Virus record (IMG/VR): IMGVR_UViG_3300034407_000717
Coordinates: 1 to 29,779 of that record
DNA length: 29,779 nucleotides
Source: a virus
Reading direction: 5' to 3' (one strand)
In this document: piece by piece, positions 8,843 through 25,125 of the stretch
Position numbering within the stretch: position 1 is the stretch's first letter
How the letters are laid out: every line of letters begins with the position of its first letter
Notes under the pieces: generated by a model
Databases searched by the model: none
What the model saw: the letters and a program-made list of their open reading frames with translations, nothing else
Told to the model about the DNA's origin: nothing
Made by a program: the position numbers and the translations under genes

Positions 8843-9799
8843 TTATGAGTTTAAGTCTACGACACCAGTGAATACGCCTTTGTATCCATCACCGGAGCCA
8901 CGAAGTACCTTACGACCAAATACGTGAAGACCACGAACTATGTCAGAGAAACTATCTGGATCACGTATTACTTCTGTTTTAGCAATATGTGAAGCAGTAG
9001 CTACTGCAGACATATGTCCAAACAACACATCAGCTTCACCTGATGTTGTTGATGGTCCAAATGTGTTTGCTGCTGCAGTCCCTGTTGATCCAACAACCAT
9101 AACATTAGTTTGATACAGAGTAAAACCATGTATCTTTCTATCTGTTACTTGGCCGTTGAACAAGTTAGATGGACCACCTGTTACAGATGCATCCATTACT
9201 TTTGAGTCAGCCTGTCTTAGTAGTTCAAAGAACTGAGGGCTGGCACAAAGCCAACGGTTTTCACCCGGAACGTCATTGTCATCTAATACACGAGCTGCTG
9301 TACTAATATAGTTTGCTATTTTGTTACCTGAATTACCAGATATAGCAGAACCTGCAGCCCCTAAAGGAGTTGCATCTGTTGCAGCTCCGTCATTGATTGC
9401 ACTTAGTACGTTGTAGTCGTAAGATTTCTTCAGAGCATAAGCACCTGAAGATGTTGCAAGAGCCTCAAAGTTTACATGTGATTGTCTTTCTTCTATGTCG
9501 TCAACTTTAAATGCAAAATAATTGCCTTGATCAACTGTTAATTGAATCTGATCATCAGCAAGTGTTTGTGTATTTATTGTTTGTCCACGACCATAAGAAG
9601 CTACAGTAACTGTTGGTTCTTTTAGAATGTTTACAGTATCGCCATAATTCTCAATTTCTCCGGTGTAATCGGTATTTGTAATAGCTTCAGCAACCGATGC
9701 TCTACGGAAATATTTAAGAACTTTTTGACTGTAAATAGCTGGTGCCCAATTACCTGAAGGTAAATTCTGATAACCGGCTGCCGATCCCATTGTAGCCAT
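8843..9799 (-). CDS. Major capsid protein (HK97-fold type)
   Basis: A 318-residue protein with AAGGAAC before the ATG. The N-terminal part (NWAPAIYSQKVLKYFRRASVAEAITNTDYTGE) resembles the N-arm and E-loop region of capsid proteins. IENYGDTVNILKEPTVTV and DQIQLTVDQGNYFAFKVDDIEE are patterns I associate with major capsid proteins of marine podovirus-like phages. The middle and C-terminal regions (VPGENRWLCASPQFFELLRQ, FGHMSAVATASHI, VRGLHVFGRKVLR) fit the A and P domains. It follows the scaffold-like gene after 18 nt and precedes the decoration-like gene. The length is normal for HK97-fold capsids with a separate scaffold. Confidence 0.88.
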   Translation of the reverse strand: MATMGSAAGYQNLPSGNWAPAIYSQKVLKYFRRASVAEAITNTDYTGEIENYGDTVNILKEPTVTVASYGRGQTINTQTLADDQIQLTVDQGNYFAFKVDDIEERQSHVNFEALATSSGAYALKKSYDYNVLSAINDGAATDATPLGAAGSAISGNSGNKIANYISTAARVLDDNDVPGENRWLCASPQFFELLRQADSKVMDASVTGGPSNLFNGQVTDRKIHGFTLYQTNVMVVGSTGTAAANTFGPSTTSGEADVLFGHMSAVATASHIAKTEVIRDPDSFSDIVRGLHVFGRKVLRGSGDGYKGVFTGVVDLNS

Positions 9800-14361: not shown

Positions 14362-16470
14362 TTATCCTTCAACTTGAGGAGTATTTCCAGTAAACCCGCT
14401 TTCCCCTGCAGACGGTACACCTCCAGTTCCGATGGTGCCATCACCAGTGCCGTTAATGTTTGTTTGTGGAGGTTCTTGAGGTACTCCTCCAACACCTCCC
14501 ATTCCATCTTGTCCTGCCCCAGTAGCGGGGCTAGGCCCTTGAGTGGGTCCTTCGGGTCCTTCAGGTTGTTGGGCATCTTGCAATCCTTTGAGTATTTCAG
14601 CGTATATCTGTGCTTCGTTTACATCGTTTACTAAGCTGTCAGGATCAATATCCTGTGATATAGCTAGTTCTTTTAACAGATTTGGTATTTTAATAAATGG
14701 TGCAAGCATAGGGTTGCTTACAGTTTGTAGTAACATAGTTAATCGTTGTGAACGTACTTCTTTTTGCATTACAGAAGCAGCTCCTTTTGGTTTAATTTCA
14801 AGATCACCAATTATATCTGGATTACTGTCATTAAACTGCATGTTCCATTGAAAGAAAGCTTCTCCCATTGGTTTAAGTAGGTAATCATCTATATTTTTAA
14901 TAACTGTTTTTATAGATAATCCTGAAGAACCAAGCAACATAGATAATCCTGATGCTGTTCTTCCTGTGCCTGTTACTCCCGTTTGACCATGCATAATGCT
15001 TGGTATACCTGTCTCCTCATCGGCAAGTTGCCTTGCTTTGTCATACATTTGTATGTTTTCACCAGCAGTACTAGGAAATTTTATGCCGTTTACAGCGGTT
15101 CCAGTAACTCCTGACTGTCTTCTAAACACTTTTCCGGGGAAAATGTCATAATTTTGTCCGGGTACAAGTGATGTCTCATCTACGTCAAATACAAGATTGC
15201 CAGCTAATGCTAGGTTATCTATAGCCATACGTACATGACCATTCATTAACATTTGTGCATCTTCCATGTTTTCTGGTATGCCAACACCCCAAATTTGGTA
15301 TGGGCTTAGTTCGTATGGAAATGCGTAGTATGGCATTCTTTCTGGAGTAAATGGATTAGCACAAGCTCGTAAAACTTGACCTCCAGAAATCCAGATGTTT
15401 ACCTGTGCTTGATCTAAAGGGTCTAACTCATCTGCACCTTCAATGCCTATCATTTGAGCAATAGTTGCATCAATTATTCCCCAATATTCTAACACTTCAT
15501 AACGCTCGTGTTCACTGTATGGTTCATTCTCATCATCACGAATTGTATCTTCAAAATACTTTTCTTGATAATTACCACCCCCAGCAATAACTTCTCGTAC
15601 TGCTTCAGGATTAAACATAGGCATATTCATAAGGTTACGTAATTGAGAACGATTCATTTTATGACGTTGTATTACATATTCACAATCATCTATGTGTGTT
15701 GCAGATGGATCAGGATATACATCCCAAATGCTTACAGCCTCAATACGAGGAACAAGTTTATCATAGGGTGTATATATTCTACCTTCTTCTCCTTCTTCCC
15801 ACTTATGAATAGTTTTACCAAAATTGAATGGGCCTTTTATTATTCCTGTACCGAGAAGACTAGACTCAAATATAGCATGTCGTAAAACATTTACAGCATT
15901 ACTGTCAGTAAGTTGGTCATGTATTACTTTTTCCATTGCTAACGCAGAAGATTTTGCAGGAGAAATTTGAGGTTCTCCCATCCTAGCTGGTCCTTCTGCT
16001 ACAGGAGCTTCTGGACCAAACTTATTTATCATAGAACCTAAGTAGTCTAAATTGGCATCTGCAGCCTCTGTTGCTCCCGGTGGAAAATCTCTACCATCAC
16101 CTTCAAAACCATATGGATCAAGTATATCATCCGCAGGAGTTTTTAAATGTGCAAACTCAGCAATACCTTCTGGTACTGGAGTGTGTTCTACTGTAATAGG
16201 AAATTTTTTATTAGCAAATAAAATATCTACAATTTGACCGTATGCAGCAAGTACTTTAGTCTTAGTTATTTTTATAAATACTTTAGACTTTTCTGTGCTT
16301 GTATATTGTGTAGAAGAGTCATACACTCCCCTAAAGTTTTTATACGCTTTTAACCAACGCTCTTCATGAGTTTGTCTACCATCTTCAGCACTACGCATAC
16401 GTTCTTGAATTAGTCCTACAACTCCAGAACTTTCAGACATTTCTTCTGTTAAATCAATTGGATCAGACAT
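14362..16470 (-). CDS. Portal protein
   Basis: A 702-residue protein in the position and size range of podovirus portals (P22/T7-like head-tail connectors). Typical portal features are the N-terminal helix with ERMRSAEDGRQTHEERWLKA, VFIKITKTKVLAAYGQIVDI, the strand-turn region EAVSIWDVYPDPSATHIDD, and YVIQRHKMNRSQLRNLM. A helical stretch (SGLSMLLGSSGLSIKTVIKN) sits where the crown and stem helices lie. The last ~70 residues are a Pro/Gly/Gln-rich disordered tail (PEGPEGPTQG, GGVGGVPQEPPQT). A dodecameric ring that threads DNA and binds TerL is the known family role. It is separated from TerL by two genes, which is unusual but seen in marine phages. Confidence 0.88.
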   Translation of the reverse strand: MSDPIDLTEEMSESSGVVGLIQERMRSAEDGRQTHEERWLKAYKNFRGVYDSSTQYTSTEKSKVFIKITKTKVLAAYGQIVDILFANKKFPITVEHTPVPEGIAEFAHLKTPADDILDPYGFEGDGRDFPPGATEAADANLDYLGSMINKFGPEAPVAEGPARMGEPQISPAKSSALAMEKVIHDQLTDSNAVNVLRHAIFESSLLGTGIIKGPFNFGKTIHKWEEGEEGRIYTPYDKLVPRIEAVSIWDVYPDPSATHIDDCEYVIQRHKMNRSQLRNLMNMPMFNPEAVREVIAGGGNYQEKYFEDTIRDDENEPYSEHERYEVLEYWGIIDATIAQMIGIEGADELDPLDQAQVNIWISGGQVLRACANPFTPERMPYYAFPYELSPYQIWGVGIPENMEDAQMLMNGHVRMAIDNLALAGNLVFDVDETSLVPGQNYDIFPGKVFRRQSGVTGTAVNGIKFPSTAGENIQMYDKARQLADEETGIPSIMHGQTGVTGTGRTASGLSMLLGSSGLSIKTVIKNIDDYLLKPMGEAFFQWNMQFNDSNPDIIGDLEIKPKGAASVMQKEVRSQRLTMLLQTVSNPMLAPFIKIPNLLKELAISQDIDPDSLVNDVNEAQIYAEILKGLQDAQQPEGPEGPTQGPSPATGAGQDGMGGVGGVPQEPPQTNINGTGDGTIGTGGVPSAGESGFTGNTPQVEG

Positions 16471-16757: not shown

Positions 16758-18398
16758 TTAAAATCCTAACTCGTTCATAGCTTCAGTTACACGAGCATCT
16801 TGTTCTTCACGTTCTCTTTCTTTTTGCTGTTGTTCTCCTCTTAGAACTCCTTTTTGTATTTCAGCACCACGGGGATTATACCCTTCCATCTCAAATAATT
16901 CAGAAGCGACAGGAGATGGTTCTAAACCTATAGGTGATAATGCATCTGGAAAATCAAACGGAGCTGCTTCTGTATCAAAAGCTGTTGCTCCCAATCCTGT
17001 TCCTACAATTGCAGCTACAGGTTTACCTATTCTTGTTCTTGCTATAAGATCTAATACTTTTTGTGAAAGATTTTTTGGTTTCTTTAACATGTCGTCTGTT
17101 TGTGCTCTTATCTCTGCAGCTTTTTGTTTTTTTTCTGCAGCAGATAGTTCTTTATCAGCAATATAAGCATCAGCATCAGCTTGACCCATTGCTCTTACAG
17201 ATTCCGATTGATTTAAATCTACGGTTGCAGGAGCAGACAATGCTGTTCCGGTTGCTGGTAAAGACTCTTTAAATCCTTTTGCAAGTTGTGTTGAGTAAAT
17301 TTCATCCGTTAGTAAATCTTGTGTAACTGCAATCCTAGCTGTTTTTTCTGATACGTTATCATATCCTAAATTACTTAGCAGTTGGCTTACAGAGTTTGTT
17401 CCGGTGTATGCAGCAACTTTAGCTGCTACCATATTACCAGATTGTGTTACTTTTATCTTATTTGTTCTACTTGTTACGTATCCCGCACCTTCATCTACAC
17501 CTGCTCTTCCAGTTGCTATTCTTCTTTCAGAATCTGGTGTGCTTAATTCTACATGCATAGATTCGTTTGCGTTTCTAAAATTATAAGATGTAATGTTTTC
17601 TTTTACATAAACTTCTTTGTTAGGTTTATATACTTGTACCCCATCTGGAAAAGCTATTTTTAAATTGTCATTAATAGTTTTTGTAGAACTTTTAATATCA
17701 TTAAATAGTGGCCCAGATGTACGATTACCTTTCTGTACTCGTAGTATATCTAATATGGGATCAGATAAAATTATAGTTTTTTTACCACTCTTAGTATCTG
17801 CAGCATTTATAACACCTGCACTAAAATCTATTTTTTCTATATTTAATCCATCCATATCAGAAGGTCTAAATCCGCCTAAAAACATAACTGATGCTAAATT
17901 TTTTGCTTCACCATCTAAGTTTGCAATAACAGAAGGGACTTTTTTGTAAAAATTATCTGGAAGTTCACTTATTATTTTTCTAGCACGTCTTTTGCTCCAG
18001 CCAGATGCATTTTCATAAGCTTCTTTACCAACTTCTTTTTCTAACAAAGTAGACAGGTAACCTCCACGTTGGGATAGTCCTGCACCTTCAAATACAGCAT
18101 TTAATCGTACAATAGATTTAAGAACAGAAGGTTTTCCTTTTTTTGCCAAACTCCCTGTTATAAAAATATTTTTAAGTAAGTCGCCCTGTCCTTGAACTTG
18201 ATTTGGAGTTAATTTAAGAAAAGTAGTCTTTTTTCCTTCGCCTAAATTTACAGTGTCTAAAGATAGCAATTTTTTTACAGCTGCAACTTCTGTTTTATTG
18301 TTAGGATTTTTTTTAACTTCAAGATCAAGTAGCTCATCAAATGTCATATTCATTCTATCAGCTACTGCACTTTTACCTGTAAAATCTATTTCAGCCAT
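16758..18398 (-). CDS. Tyrosine-recombinase-like protein with long C-terminal extension
   Basis: A 546-residue protein. Residues ~80-155 look like a core-binding helical domain. Residues ~160-315 fit a phage integrase catalytic domain: Arg178 in FLGGFRPSDMDGLNIEKIDF, a Lys hairpin at 203-206 (DTKSGKKT), Tyr272-x-x-Arg275 (SYNFR) where the family usually has His-x-x-Arg, Arg298 (TGRAG) where His or Trp is usual, and Tyr307 exactly nine residues later (GAGYV), as in the family's H-x8-Y spacing. Residues ~320-546 are an added tail with Ala-rich helices, a hydrophobic stretch (KPVAAIVGTGLGATAF) and a charged end. It overlaps the TerL stop (TAATG) and lies between TerL and portal. It may be a working or degenerate recombinase, or a virion protein using that fold. 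Confidence 0.6.
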   Translation of the reverse strand: MAEIDFTGKSAVADRMNMTFDELLDLEVKKNPNNKTEVAAVKKLLSLDTVNLGEGKKTTFLKLTPNQVQGQGDLLKNIFITGSLAKKGKPSVLKSIVRLNAVFEGAGLSQRGGYLSTLLEKEVGKEAYENASGWSKRRARKIISELPDNFYKKVPSVIANLDGEAKNLASVMFLGGFRPSDMDGLNIEKIDFSAGVINAADTKSGKKTIILSDPILDILRVQKGNRTSGPLFNDIKSSTKTINDNLKIAFPDGVQVYKPNKEVYVKENITSYNFRNANESMHVELSTPDSERRIATGRAGVDEGAGYVTSRTNKIKVTQSGNMVAAKVAAYTGTNSVSQLLSNLGYDNVSEKTARIAVTQDLLTDEIYSTQLAKGFKESLPATGTALSAPATVDLNQSESVRAMGQADADAYIADKELSAAEKKQKAAEIRAQTDDMLKKPKNLSQKVLDLIARTRIGKPVAAIVGTGLGATAFDTEAAPFDFPDALSPIGLEPSPVASELFEMEGYNPRGAEIQKGVLRGEQQQKEREREEQDARVTEAMNELGF

Positions 18399-20020
18399 TA
18401 GTATCCAAATACCTCATTTTCCGGCACATATCTTTGGTTTTGCCTGCTAGAATAATACGGTGTACTTGCATTGTGCAAAGATCTCACCATCATCATATAT
18501 CTCAACGCATCATATGCGTGATCGTCTGCTTTTGTATCTACATCCTCTGGATTATGCTTAGATAGAGGTAATGTAGGTAATGTTCTTACTAAATTCGTGC
18601 AATTTTCCATAATTCTTACTCTTGGTTGTCCTCTGCTGTCACAAGCTAGTCTTCTATGCACTTCTATCTTTCCTGCTAGTCTGTTTCTATCTGATGGAAT
18701 CCATCTACAGCCTTTTCTGTTCATTGTTTCCGCTATACTAGGCCCTAACCCTGTTCTATTCCAACAACTTGCATCTAATACGGATATTTGCATGTTTGGA
18801 TCGTTTCTTTCTAATTCTAGTATTAAATCACCGAGAGCTTCACCGGTTTTGTTCTTTATATACAGTTCTCTATATATCCAGATGTTGTTATCCCAGTCTA
18901 TAGCACCCCAAAGAATACAAGAAGGACTACTGTAGCCATAATCTCCGGCACGTACCCTAGCCCAACCATCAGGTGGGTCAAAGGTTTCCACCACATGTAG
19001 CGTTCTACTAAATTCTGTAAAAGCTGCCCCCTCTGCGACATCCCAGTCTCCTTCTAATAATCTTTTTCGTTCTACTTCTGGTAAGGAAAGCAACATAGCT
19101 TCGTATTGACCATCTATAGCAAGATATGGATTGTCTGTCAACCTTGCTGGTATAAATTTTTTTAGAAATAAAGGTTCACCTTCTTTAGAATGTCCCGCAG
19201 GATACCTTATTGTTTTCTGTGTGTCAAATTCCTTTGCCCAAAATGCTGATCCGGGTGGGGATGGGTCTATATACATCTTCTTTACCCACCAACCGCCTAC
19301 TCCACCGGGGTTAGCTGTGCACCTCATGTAAAGACCAAGCTGTGGATCGGTGCTTCTAAGTCTAGATCTTAGGTAATTCCACACATATGGAGTAGGATAC
19401 TGTGTTATTTCGTCTATTCCTATCCAATTAAACGCTTGTCCTTGGTATCTTGTTACGTCTCTGTCGTCATCTACGTAAGAAAACCATATTTTAGCCCCGG
19501 AAGGGAACTCCCACGTTGATTTTGCCTGTTTAAACACTGCTCCCGGCACCGCTTTCATGTACAATTGCCTACTTTTGTCTATAAGTTCGGTCAATTCTGG
19601 TAAAGTACGTCTTAAAAGTAGTCCTCTGTGGTTAGGATTGCCTACATCTCTTAAAACATCAGCAAGAAGTGCGTATGATTTACCTCCACCTGCTGCTCCA
19701 CCGTACAATACGTCTCTTTCTGGACTTTCTAAGAACTCAGCCTGTGGTCCATCGTTAGATTTAAACACAACTTCGTTCTCAGCAACGTGATTTCTTACTT
19801 TTTCTGGTAACGCTAGTAGTTCTTCTTCGGATATTGGCTCTTTTCCGTCACCTGAAAGGGCTGCATCTATTTTACTAAGGCTTTCTTGTAGTTTATTTGC
19901 CCTGTATCGTGCATTTATAGCACGTTTTGAATCTTTTTTTGCTTTTGCTTTAGCGTTGGATAACTTTGTTGATACGGCTTTACGTATCTTTTTCCTATCC
20001 AGTTTGGCTTCCGCTGCCAT
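18398..20020 (-). CDS. terL: Terminase large subunit
   Basis: A 540-residue packaging motor. The ATPase domain has Walker A GGAAGGGKS at residues 107-115 and Walker B WIGIDE at about 199-204, with the arginine-rich LLLRRTLPELTEL before it and LRCTANPGG-like MRCTANPGGVGGWW as the coupling region. The C-terminal RNase H-fold nuclease shows its acidic residues in RAGDYGYSSPS, SVLDASCW and KADDHAYDALRYMM. It would cut concatemers and pump DNA through the portal. The first ~60 residues are an unusual Lys/Ala-rich helix (KAVSTKLSNAKAKAKKDSK) that may bind DNA. The start lies 26 nt inside the preceding gene, and its stop overlaps the next start. Confidence 0.95.
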   Translation of the reverse strand: MAAEAKLDRKKIRKAVSTKLSNAKAKAKKDSKRAINARYRANKLQESLSKIDAALSGDGKEPISEEELLALPEKVRNHVAENEVVFKSNDGPQAEFLESPERDVLYGGAAGGGKSYALLADVLRDVGNPNHRGLLLRRTLPELTELIDKSRQLYMKAVPGAVFKQAKSTWEFPSGAKIWFSYVDDDRDVTRYQGQAFNWIGIDEITQYPTPYVWNYLRSRLRSTDPQLGLYMRCTANPGGVGGWWVKKMYIDPSPPGSAFWAKEFDTQKTIRYPAGHSKEGEPLFLKKFIPARLTDNPYLAIDGQYEAMLLSLPEVERKRLLEGDWDVAEGAAFTEFSRTLHVVETFDPPDGWARVRAGDYGYSSPSCILWGAIDWDNNIWIYRELYIKNKTGEALGDLILELERNDPNMQISVLDASCWNRTGLGPSIAETMNRKGCRWIPSDRNRLAGKIEVHRRLACDSRGQPRVRIMENCTNLVRTLPTLPLSKHNPEDVDTKADDHAYDALRYMMMVRSLHNASTPYYSSRQNQRYVPENEVFGY

Positions 20021-23468: not shown

Positions 23469-23888
23469 CTAATCCTCACCGTTGTCTTCCACTATGGGCA
23501 TTGCCGACTTGCTTGGCATAAGTACAATTCCATGCAGTGCCTTTACATCATGTTCTTGTTTTTCTATTTTACCAAGGCCAACCCTGTCTAATAGCGTTTG
23601 TGCTGCTTTTAGTCTGAGTTCTTGTCTAGGGTTCAACCCATCATCATTCATAGATTCTACTACCCTAGATACAGCAGTAGCCGAATTAACGGCTAGTTCT
23701 CTTTTGGATATATCTACAATTTCGTCTGCAAGGGCTTTTACAAGCCAAGTTCTAGAAGAAGGAGAGTATCCCGCTTCCTCACAGGCTGCGGATATATTGC
23801 CTTTGTTTACGAAGAGAGCATCAAGAAACTTCTTTTGTTTCTCTGTAACTTCCTTTTTCTTTTCCTGTGCTAAAAGTGCTGTACTCAC
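23469..23888 (-). CDS. Terminase small subunit-like protein
   Basis: A 139-residue protein with a GTG start overlapping the upstream stop as GTGA. The pattern TEKQKKFLDALFVNKGNISA, EEAGYSPSSRTWLVKALADEI and LRLKAAQTLLDRVGLGKIEK matches the helix-turn-helix and helical hairpin of phage small terminases, which recognise phage DNA and stimulate TerL. It is separated from TerL by seven genes, which is unusual, and another small protein (19995-20264) lies next to TerL. One of the two is presumably the true TerS. I rate this one higher because of the recognisable 'LT.kQ..FvdaL....gn...Aa..AGYs' start. Confidence 0.7.
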   Translation of the reverse strand: MSTALLAQEKKKEVTEKQKKFLDALFVNKGNISAACEEAGYSPSSRTWLVKALADEIVDISKRELAVNSATAVSRVVESMNDDGLNPRQELRLKAAQTLLDRVGLGKIEKQEHDVKALHGIVLMPSKSAMPIVEDNGED

Positions 23889-24055
23889 CCGTAAGTCTGT
23901 GCCTTTCTTATTCCGCCACCTTTAGCGTACATCTTCTTGTGGACCTTGCCACCACCCATCATTTTCTTTTTCTTTTTAGGGATAACGCCTTTAGCTATAA
24001 GAATATCCGCTTGAGTAATTTTACCGTCATCAGAGTAGTCTGGAAAATCAGCCAT
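23885..24055 (-). CDS. EF-hand-like mini-protein with basic KGG tail
   Basis: I choose ATG at 24055 (AAAGG 9 nt upstream, 8-nt overlap with the previous stop) over a GTG at 24082. The 56-residue product starts MADFPDYSDDGKITQADILI. Residues 6-17 (D-Y-S-D-D-G-K-I-T-Q-A-D) fit the 12-residue EF-hand calcium loop, with acidic or polar ligands at 1, 3, 5, 9 and 12, Gly at 6 and Ile at 8. The second half is Lys/Gly-rich (IPKKKKKMMGGGKVHKK) and ends YAKGGGIRKAQTYG. Nearly the same end closes the upstream protein. Similar DxTxDGKxTxxD plus KGG-tail proteins occur in marine phages. Function is unknown. Confidence 0.7.
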   Translation of the reverse strand: MADFPDYSDDGKITQADILIAKGVIPKKKKKMMGGGKVHKKMYAKGGGIRKAQTYG

Positions 24056-24329
24056 ATGTCTTTGCCTTTCGTATTCCGCCACCTTTAGCGTATTTTTTCA
24101 TTGCTTTACCACCGTAAGCCATCTTTTTCTTTTTAGCTTTGCCACCGTAGGCTTTCATAGTAAAAGAATCATCACCCATTATGAGTATCCCTTTTTTCTT
24201 TAAAGACTCTCTTGCTTCATTTTCATGGGCTAAAGTTATTTCTTTTATAGTAATTCCGGGATTTAAATTTATAATTTCTTTTCTAATTAAAGTGCCCCCT
24301 TGGCCTTTTCCTACTATTCTTTCTGCCAC
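24048..24329 (-). CDS. Small basic protein with repeated YGGK tail
   Basis: A 93-residue protein with a GTG start; GGAG lies 9 nt upstream, inside the end of the PqqA-like gene, so the two are coupled. Residues 1-55 are a mixed helical domain (GTLIRKEIINLNPGITIKEI, ENEARESLKKKGILIMG). The tail carries two AYGGKA(K/M)KK units and ends KKYAKGGGIRKAKTYG. The tail is shared with the next gene, at DNA level too, which points to duplication or exchange of the 3' end. Family unknown to me. Such Lys/Gly tails could bind DNA or act as a tag for packaging into the head, which is inference. Confidence 0.65.
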   Translation of the reverse strand: MAERIVGKGQGGTLIRKEIINLNPGITIKEITLAHENEARESLKKKGILIMGDDSFTMKAYGGKAKKKKMAYGGKAMKKYAKGGGIRKAKTYG

Positions 24330-24332
24330 CCT

Positions 24333-24407
24333 CTAGATCTCCGCACACGCATAACAATTAATTTCTAGTCCTACTGCTACTTCTATTATTCTTGGTGATT
24401 TCCACAT
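24333..24407 (-). CDS. pqqA: PqqA-like pyrroloquinoline quinone precursor peptide
   Basis: A 24-residue ORF (ATG 24407, TAG 24333-24335) with AAAAGGA 8 nt upstream. It begins MWKSPRIIEV and contains VGLEINCYACAE. PqqA peptides of bacteria are 22-29 residues, usually start with a Trp/Lys/Pro cluster, and carry Glu-x-x-x-Tyr, the two residues joined by PqqE and turned into the cofactor PQQ. Here Glu15 and Tyr19 fall at the same positions as in the Klebsiella peptide, preceded by the usual Gly-Leu or Gly-Met. No pqqB-E genes are in the window, so the product would rely on host PqqD/PqqE. It is the first gene after a consensus promoter and a structured leader. A different RiPP precursor is the alternative. 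Confidence 0.78.
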   Translation of the reverse strand: MWKSPRIIEVAVGLEINCYACAEI

Positions 24408-24596
24408 GATATGTATCCTTTTATGTTATCTTGGTTGATTTGTCTTGGGGGATACGGAGCATAGACGCTCCCTCCGGAGATAGTATATTAATTGTGCTAC
24501 CCCCCAAGGACTTAAAATGATGCAGCACAACCCGTTAACCCCTCGTATGTATAATCTGTTCTTGTGAGGTTGTGAGTGTATTTGCACTACATATGT
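24408..24596 (-). promoter_or_regulatory. Structured 5' leader with potential H-type pseudoknot
   Basis: This ~190-nt untranslated stretch lies between the leftward promoter and the PqqA-like start. In minus-strand RNA, TTGTGCT (24498-24492) can pair with AGCACAA's reverse partner: the arms are plus-strand 24524-24530 and 24492-24498, 7 bp. CTTGGGGG/CCCCCAAG (24501-24508 with 24444-24451) forms 8 bp. The 5' arm of the second stem lies in the loop of the first, so together they make an H-type pseudoknot. Inside the last loop are GGAGC-6nt-GCTCC (24456-24471) and the palindrome CTCCGGAG. CAACC (24433-24437) could alternatively pair with GGTTG at 24528-24532. This looks like a riboswitch or protein-binding leader, but I recognise no known class. 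Confidence 0.6.
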
Positions 24597-24602
24597 CTAT
24601 AT

Positions 24603-24630
24603 ATTATACAGCGTATATGCAAGTTGTCAA
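24603..24630 (-). promoter_or_regulatory. Leftward consensus sigma70 promoter
   Basis: On the minus strand TTGACA (24630-24625) and TATAAT (24608-24603) are both perfect consensus with a 16-nt spacer. A start near 24596 would give the structured leader, the PqqA-like gene and the packaging/virion operon. It is one of two mirror-image promoters sharing an inverted repeat over their -35 boxes. Confidence 0.85.
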
Positions 24631-24675
24631 GTAAAAAGTTACTTAAATGTGCTTTTTTTATTTTTTACTTGACAA
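24624..24675. repeat. Perfect 14-bp inverted repeat across two -35 boxes
   Basis: TTGTCAAGTAAAAA (24624-24637) is mirrored exactly by TTTTTACTTGACAA (24662-24675), with a 24-nt AT-rich centre. Each arm contains the -35 hexamer of one of the divergent promoters. The symmetry would let one dimeric regulator cover both -35 boxes, or may simply come from a promoter duplication. Confidence 0.85.
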
Positions 24676-24696
24676 GTCTGAAATACGGTGTATAAT
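24669..24696 (+). promoter_or_regulatory. Rightward consensus sigma70 promoter
   Basis: TTGACA (24669-24674), 16-nt spacer, TATAAT (24691-24696), all consensus on the plus strand. The predicted start near 24703 makes it the only strong plus-strand signal in the window. It faces the early genes, which end in a terminator at about 25126-25155. Confidence 0.82.
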
Positions 24697-25125
24697 AAGG
24701 GTAATCCCGTTGGGTAATATACCTTGTACCCTATAGGGCTACCTTAAGGTATGCCGAGGTGATCCATGTGGAATATCCTGTAGAGATAGCTTTCTGGTTG
24801 GAACTAACGGGATGCCCAAAAAAATCTGGTAGGGTGCCTAAAAAATACACAAAATTGGTAGAGATTGCATACGGTATACCGGGTACCCCCCAGTGTCCCT
24901 TACGTGCGGGTAACCCTTTGTTTTTATTTATTTTTCCTGTTAGTACCTCATTGATGAAACCACCTTCCAAGATATCCCACAAGATAATATTGCAAGTAGA
25001 TATAAGGTAAAATAAAAGTTCCGCATCATGCACACGCAAAAGATAGGGGCTGACATTTTCTCTGGTTGTGAAACTTTTAGGGCTACTGTGTAGACTATAA
25101 AAGCGTATCTTACAACACTACCCAT
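24697..25125 (+). ncRNA. Possible rightward structured RNA or short mRNA
   Basis: The only transcript predicted from the rightward promoter. Near its 5' end the RNA can form ATACCTT/AAGGTAT around CCC-TATA-GGG (about 24718-24753), and TCCCGTT (24705-24711) can pair with AACGGGA (24806-24812). A 9-nt perfect match to the anti-Shine-Dalgarno sequence, GAGGTGATC, lies at 24756-24764. It is GC-richer than its surroundings. I cannot decide between a regulatory RNA and a short mRNA. No tRNA or tmRNA features were seen. Confidence 0.35.
24768..25010 (+). CDS. Doubtful plus-strand ORF of ~80 residues
   Basis: A GTG at 24768 lies 8 nt after GAGG of a very strong ribosome site and opens 80 codons ending TAA at 25010. 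The product has a basic middle (GCPKKSGRVPKKYTKLVEIA) and a hydrophobic stretch (NPLFLFIFPVS). An ATG two nt earlier in another frame would use the same site and make only five residues (MWNIL), which argues against efficient translation of the longer frame. I recognise no family. The case for the ORF is the promoter plus ribosome site; the case against is the GTG start and the competing ATG. Confidence 0.3.
   Translation: MEYPVEIAFWLELTGCPKKSGRVPKKYTKLVEIAYGIPGTPQCPLRAGNPLFLFIFPVSTSLMKPPSKISHKIILQVDIR

Follow-up and report, generated by a model that had tools for sequence, protein, structure and literature searches.

PqqA is the peptide that bacteria use up in making the redox cofactor PQQ, and one PqqA is destroyed for every PQQ made. 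In Klebsiella the PqqA protein is present in 20-fold excess over PqqC or PqqE (PMC2294125), and a methylotroph has been described with three pqqA copies separate from its pqq operons (PMC9851590). Phage PqqA as a kind is already known, since a PqqA adjoining a phage methanol dehydrogenase was reported in 2020 for the Lake Baikal phage VP_266 (PMC7678222), and viral pqqA, pqqD and pqqE were listed for reservoir sediment in 2026 (PMC13188868); these two reports refute the belief, voiced in a preliminary description of the DNA studied here, that such a gene was undescribed in phages. A catalogue of viral metabolic genes from the global ocean (PMC11360552) leaves PQQ unmentioned in its main text, and in the descriptions of the phages Melnitz, MEP301, MEP401/402 and Venkman PQQ is absent or named only as a medium component. 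The breadth of phage pqqA, its occurrence as precursor only, the match between peptide and host type, the retention of the Glu/Tyr pair and the OM43 phages as carriers appear to be unreported in the literature excluding preprints and most subscription journals.

The window, that is the whole stretch of 29,779 nucleotides analyzed here, is an IMG/VR record of an ocean virus in which terminase, portal and major capsid genes lie downstream of a small ORF. This ORF of 24 codons is on the minus strand, from 24407 to 24333, and encodes MWKSPRIIEVAVGLEINCYACAEI followed by a stop; the plus-strand reading of 24333-24407 is closed and contains no ORF. Trp2 and Pro5 are in place (the W-x-x-P start), and Glu15 and Tyr19, the predicted cross-linked pair, form the Glu-x-x-x-Tyr motif. 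A ribosome-binding site, AAAGGA (24416..24421, minus strand), is located 8 nt 5' of the ATG and is conserved in relatives, as is the ORF.

The Pfam PqqA model PF08042 scored the ORF at 24.6 bits (E 2.6e-5; gathering cut-off 21.1) and TIGR02107, the NCBIfam equivalog model for PqqA, at 28.7 bits (E 8.6e-7; cut-off 20). A home-made PqqA profile built from bacteria only gave 59.8 bits, against a maximum of 13.5 in 200 codon shuffles from the window. By the curated cut-offs and judged from its sequence, the ORF is a genuine PqqA. The ORF, its good ribosome site, the Trp/Pro start and the positions of Glu15 and Tyr19 had all been read correctly in the preliminary description, and the profile match that it had proposed looking for was obtained with both models.

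In the window, pqqA is the first ORF ahead of the terminase cluster. The genes for the terminase small subunit (23469..23888), the terminase large subunit (18398..20020), the portal protein or head-tail adaptor (14362..16470) and the major head protein (8843..9799) were assigned by PHROG matches and are all on the minus strand. A perfect sigma-70-type promoter sequence, TTGACA-16-TATAAT (24603..24630, minus strand), is located 223 bp 5' of the pqqA ATG and recurs 222-237 bp 5' of pqqA in close relatives. The leader (24408..24600, minus strand; fold z -2.27) keeps CTCCGGAG, an 8-bp palindrome followed by a small hairpin (24408-24520, minus strand), and in the alignment the arms of the hairpin covary in some relatives (GAGC..GCTC, GGGC..GCCC). 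Searching the leader against Rfam identified no family, the matches to MIR1888 and RAGATH-32 lying far under their gathering scores.

The claim that pqqA is the first gene behind a consensus promoter was thus borne out. Its description as the head of a late operon held in part: the gene stands before the terminase cluster in the window lineage, but other lineages have it elsewhere (see below), and since the genes 5' of the promoter have the same orientation as pqqA, its late status is deduced from position only.

Two further features were observed in this region. A second perfect TTGACA-16-TATAAT, at 24669-24696 on the plus strand, points away from the terminase cluster and opposes all annotated-size genes on its side; behind it is a possible plus-strand ORF (24759-25010, including RVPKKYTKL) that is partly conserved in relatives, and an antisense RNA or a small regulator is a possible product of this promoter. 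Two consecutive small genes at 23885-24329 (minus strand) have near-identical Lys/Gly-rich C-terminal tails, KKYAKGGGIRKAKTYG and KKMYAKGGGIRKAQTYG, a likeness that, at the level of sequence, suggests duplication.

Relatives were recruited with the terminase large subunit (terL) of the window, which yielded 80 IMG/VR loci. Among contigs with at least 88% terL identity that extend far enough upstream, pqqA was found at the corresponding place, ahead of the terminase cluster, in 11 of 11, and it was also found in most of the far-enough contigs at 72-73% identity. It was absent from three contigs at 71% terL identity and from the far-enough contigs at 64-66%; five pqqA-negative records were searched end to end with TIGR02107. 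Because presence and absence track the classes of terL identity, pqqA is a stable but clade-limited accessory gene. In the terminase-recruited copies codons 13-24 showed a pS of 0.71 and a pN of 0.03, whereas the N-terminal half was far freer (pS 0.21, pN 0.24); on these values the core of the peptide is under strong purifying selection. The look at related contigs suggested in the preliminary description therefore came out in favor of the gene.

Cultured podoviruses of the HMO-2011 type (HMO-2011, CRP-603 and HTVC033P) have a terL that is 47-56% identical to that of the window over most of its length, and they have the terminase-portal order in common with it. Unlike the window, they are without pqqA; searches of the whole records with TIGR02107 found no PqqA in HMO-2011, CRP-603, HTVC033P, HTVC027P, HTVC023P or 023Pt_psg01. 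The window record is 29.8 kb long, against about 53-56 kb for the HMO-2011-type isolates. In HMO-2011 a methanesulfonate monooxygenase alpha subunit is annotated just upstream of the packaging genes (285-1367 of the locus taken from GU557055.1), near the position that pqqA takes in the window type, and metabolic genes may tend to be accommodated in this region.

Three scans of IMG/VR with degenerate DNA patterns identified at least 338 stretches that encode PqqA; what was counted are stretches of contigs, near-duplicates included, and the patterns EIN..Y and FEVTMY select for intact peptides. The GLEINCYACA pattern accounted for at least 120 stretches, a pattern for Ser/Ala-18 variants for 98 more and the FEVTMY pattern for at least another 120, the 120 listed for FEVTMY all having PqqA form. 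Clustering by neighboring genes distinguished at least three phage lineages or contexts. One is the window type, with pqqA before the terminase cluster. Another has a different terminase (phrog_38; closest cultured match HTVC027P, at 41% identity) and pqqA between the portal gene and a GroES gene. In a third, made up of T4-like phages, pqqA adjoins a gp59-type helicase loader and gp32, and this gp32 is 63% identical to that of the OM43 phage Melnitz.

Melnitz itself proved to be a carrier. Searching its whole record with TIGR02107 gave a PqqA at 31.6 bits, MKWTKPVAQEMRFGFEVTMYIMTR, preceded by the ribosome site AAGGAGGG (MZ577097.1, 76134-76208); what the record annotates there is instead an opposite-strand hypothetical protein. 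A tblastn search of 50,697 phage records with the Melnitz peptide matched four Melnitz isolates, Venkman, P19250A, MEP301, MEP401 and MEP402. It also matched a single phage from spring water and a single contig with an Acinetobacter phage label. Two further PqqA queries returned the same set or a subset of it. The contig filed as Acinetobacter phage MD-2021a (CAKLQF020000010.1) carries ppk, pqqA, pqqB and pqqC, looks like bacterial chromosome and was set aside; hits among the 50,697 records were confined to methylotroph phages, the spring-water phage and this evidently bacterial contig. When the peptide of the window, or a variant close to it, was the query, tblastn found nothing in phage records; at a sensitivity at which the Methylophilales type of PqqA did match, no alphaproteobacterial type was found.

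Venkman, MEP301 and Melnitz are given as the OM43 isolates known before MEP401 and MEP402 in the paper that describes the latter two (PMC10580990). All five OM43 isolates named there have pqqA, because the tblastn search matched each of them; in these five and in the LD28 phage P19250A the gene is not annotated as PqqA (loci L483-L487 included). Like the window, the OM43/LD28 phages have a solitary pqqA with a ribosome site and an intact Glu-x-x-x-Tyr. They differ from it in having the FEVTMY type of peptide and in the neighbors of the gene, which are recombination, tRNA or baseplate genes.

No pqqC, pqqD, pqqE or PQQ alcohol dehydrogenase gene was detected in 20 pqqA-carrying phage records, many of them fragments and several longer than 50 kb; for pqqC this null result is weaker, because the pqqC control gave no signal anywhere. 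Nor does the window record, searched over its whole length, contain pqqC, pqqD or pqqE, in agreement with the earlier remark that no other pqq gene lies nearby, and the usual, though not obligatory, adjacency of PqqA to pqqBCDE is therefore missing. VP_266 likewise has a phage PqqA that was read as a metabolic gene, but it is set apart by its description: its genome has a methanol dehydrogenase gene as well, and methylotrophs were the hosts assigned to it, whereas the window has pqqA alone and of the alphaproteobacterial type.

The PqqA peptides of bacterial pqqABCDE operons, especially those of marine alphaproteobacteria (four loci), resemble the window peptide in length, W-x-x-P start, VGLEINCYACAE core and Glu-x-x-x-Tyr, to the point of being near-identical. 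The phage copy differs from these in that it stands alone in a cluster of packaging genes, is preceded by a phage promoter and is without pqqC, pqqD or pqqE. The closest bacterial peptides come from marine alphaproteobacteria. Of 19 genomes of bacteria with near-identical peptides, 18 have a pqqE and 13 a PQQ alcohol dehydrogenase that score over the cut-off; where pqqE and pqqA share a contig, they are about 2.2 kb apart. These bacteria are labelled Pelagibacterales, Rhodospirillaceae or MarineAlpha9, which suggests HIMB59/AEGEAN-169 as a candidate group.

The type of peptide varies with the phage, FEVTMY occurring in the OM43 phages and the alphaproteobacterial EINCYACA in phages of the window type, and the similarity of the peptides alone points to a marine alphaproteobacterium as the candidate host of the window phage. 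Several marine alphaproteobacteria (five loci) have a solitary pqqA, like the phage copy a lone precursor gene but located in the chromosome, where it is flanked by a LysR-like gene on one side and a transporter-like gene on the other. Two of the solitary bacterial peptides are letter-identical to phage peptides. The lone-precursor design therefore also exists in bacteria. Several alphaproteobacteria have the solitary pqqA on top of an operon copy, and a regulated booster of the precursor is a possible role for it.

We propose, with a probability of roughly 0.78, that the phage pqqA is an auxiliary metabolic gene supplying a consumable precursor to the PqqB-E enzymes of the host, the host, the expression, the conversion and the benefit being deduced. 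The phage would make the PqqA peptide during infection, and host PqqD and PqqE would cross-link its Glu and Tyr; a host protease together with PqqB and PqqC would then convert the cross-linked peptide into PQQ. This PQQ would load the periplasmic PQQ-dependent alcohol or methanol dehydrogenases of the host, and respiration would thereby be sustained for phage production. As PqqA is consumed one for one while the enzymes are reused, supplying only the precursor would be the cheapest way of keeping up PQQ synthesis as host expression falls, although the pathway literature does not show PQQ to be limited in every case by the supply of the precursor alone. Features expected of an auxiliary gene are present: a host-like gene lies within a genuine phage genome (terminase, portal, capsid), there are phage peptides identical to bacterial ones, and selection has retained the gene in several phages.

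Several other explanations were considered. An ORF of just 24 codons might look like PqqA by chance, but this one passed the curated cut-offs of both models, scored far above all its shuffles and is conserved among relatives; chance resemblance was rejected on these grounds, and its probability is practically negligible. A host gene acquired by chance might also be drifting in the phage as a passenger, and a gene so short is cheap to carry and is missing from some relatives. Drift is contradicted by the selection result for codons 13-24; moreover, the position of pqqA is fixed within each lineage, its ribosome site and promoter are conserved and the gene recurs in unrelated phages, all of which makes the passenger explanation very improbable.

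The preliminary description had offered two roles, a boost of host PQQ and a decoy, of which the boost best fits the wider evidence. As a decoy or sponge the phage peptide would occupy PqqD/PqqE or the protease and lower host PQQ, so as to redirect metabolism or exclude a competitor; it would indeed compete with host PqqA for PqqD/PqqE, and the phage has the peptide with no pathway enzyme among pqqC, pqqD and pqqE. A blocker could, however, lose its reactive residues, and an intact substrate would itself become PQQ. In viral contigs residue 18, between Glu15 and Tyr19, varies, yet scans for Glu15 replaced by codons starting with A, C or T, for Tyr19 replaced by Phe and for Tyr19 replaced by codons starting with A, C or G found none; these scans covered neither Asp, Ala, Gly or Val codons in place of Glu nor Ser, Cys, Trp or TTR-Leu codons in place of Tyr. 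A scan for Cys21 replaced by codons starting with A, C or G was also empty, so the absence of variants is not peculiar to Glu and Tyr. Judged by the substitutions scanned, a dead decoy is unlikely, and we consider a decoy of any kind decidedly improbable. The peptide might instead serve a non-respiratory purpose, through PQQ as an antioxidant or signal, or through a function unrelated to PQQ, as CYAC is Cys-x-x-Cys-like and could bind metal. The window type retains Cys18 and Cys21, and pN is low over the whole core; but both cysteines also occur in bacterial pqqABCDE operons and are missing in the OM43 phage type, and in the scan for changes of Cys18 (98 stretches) Ser replaced it in 94 contigs. 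The cysteines therefore follow host type and not phage function, and a non-respiratory purpose is unlikely.

The supply of precursor to the host pathway can be tested directly in culture, since OM43 strains are already available together with pqqA-carrying phages (Melnitz, Venkman, MEP301 and MEP401). We think it rather probable that a solitary, host-matched pqqA is widespread and largely unannotated in phages of PQQ-dependent bacteria, and for certain host clades perhaps almost universal, as a 'substrate-only' strategy in which the phage encodes nothing but the raw material of a cofactor, a ribosomal product, and leaves every enzyme to the host. Among the main routes of one-carbon metabolism in surface ocean waters is the PQQ-dependent oxidation of methanol and other alcohols. 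If several phage lineages sustain this oxidation through a gene of 24 residues that escapes gene callers, a common intervention is being undercounted in surveys of viral metabolic genes, and phage pqqA would clearly exemplify a virus that provides a cofactor pathway with its consumable substrate but with none of its enzymes.
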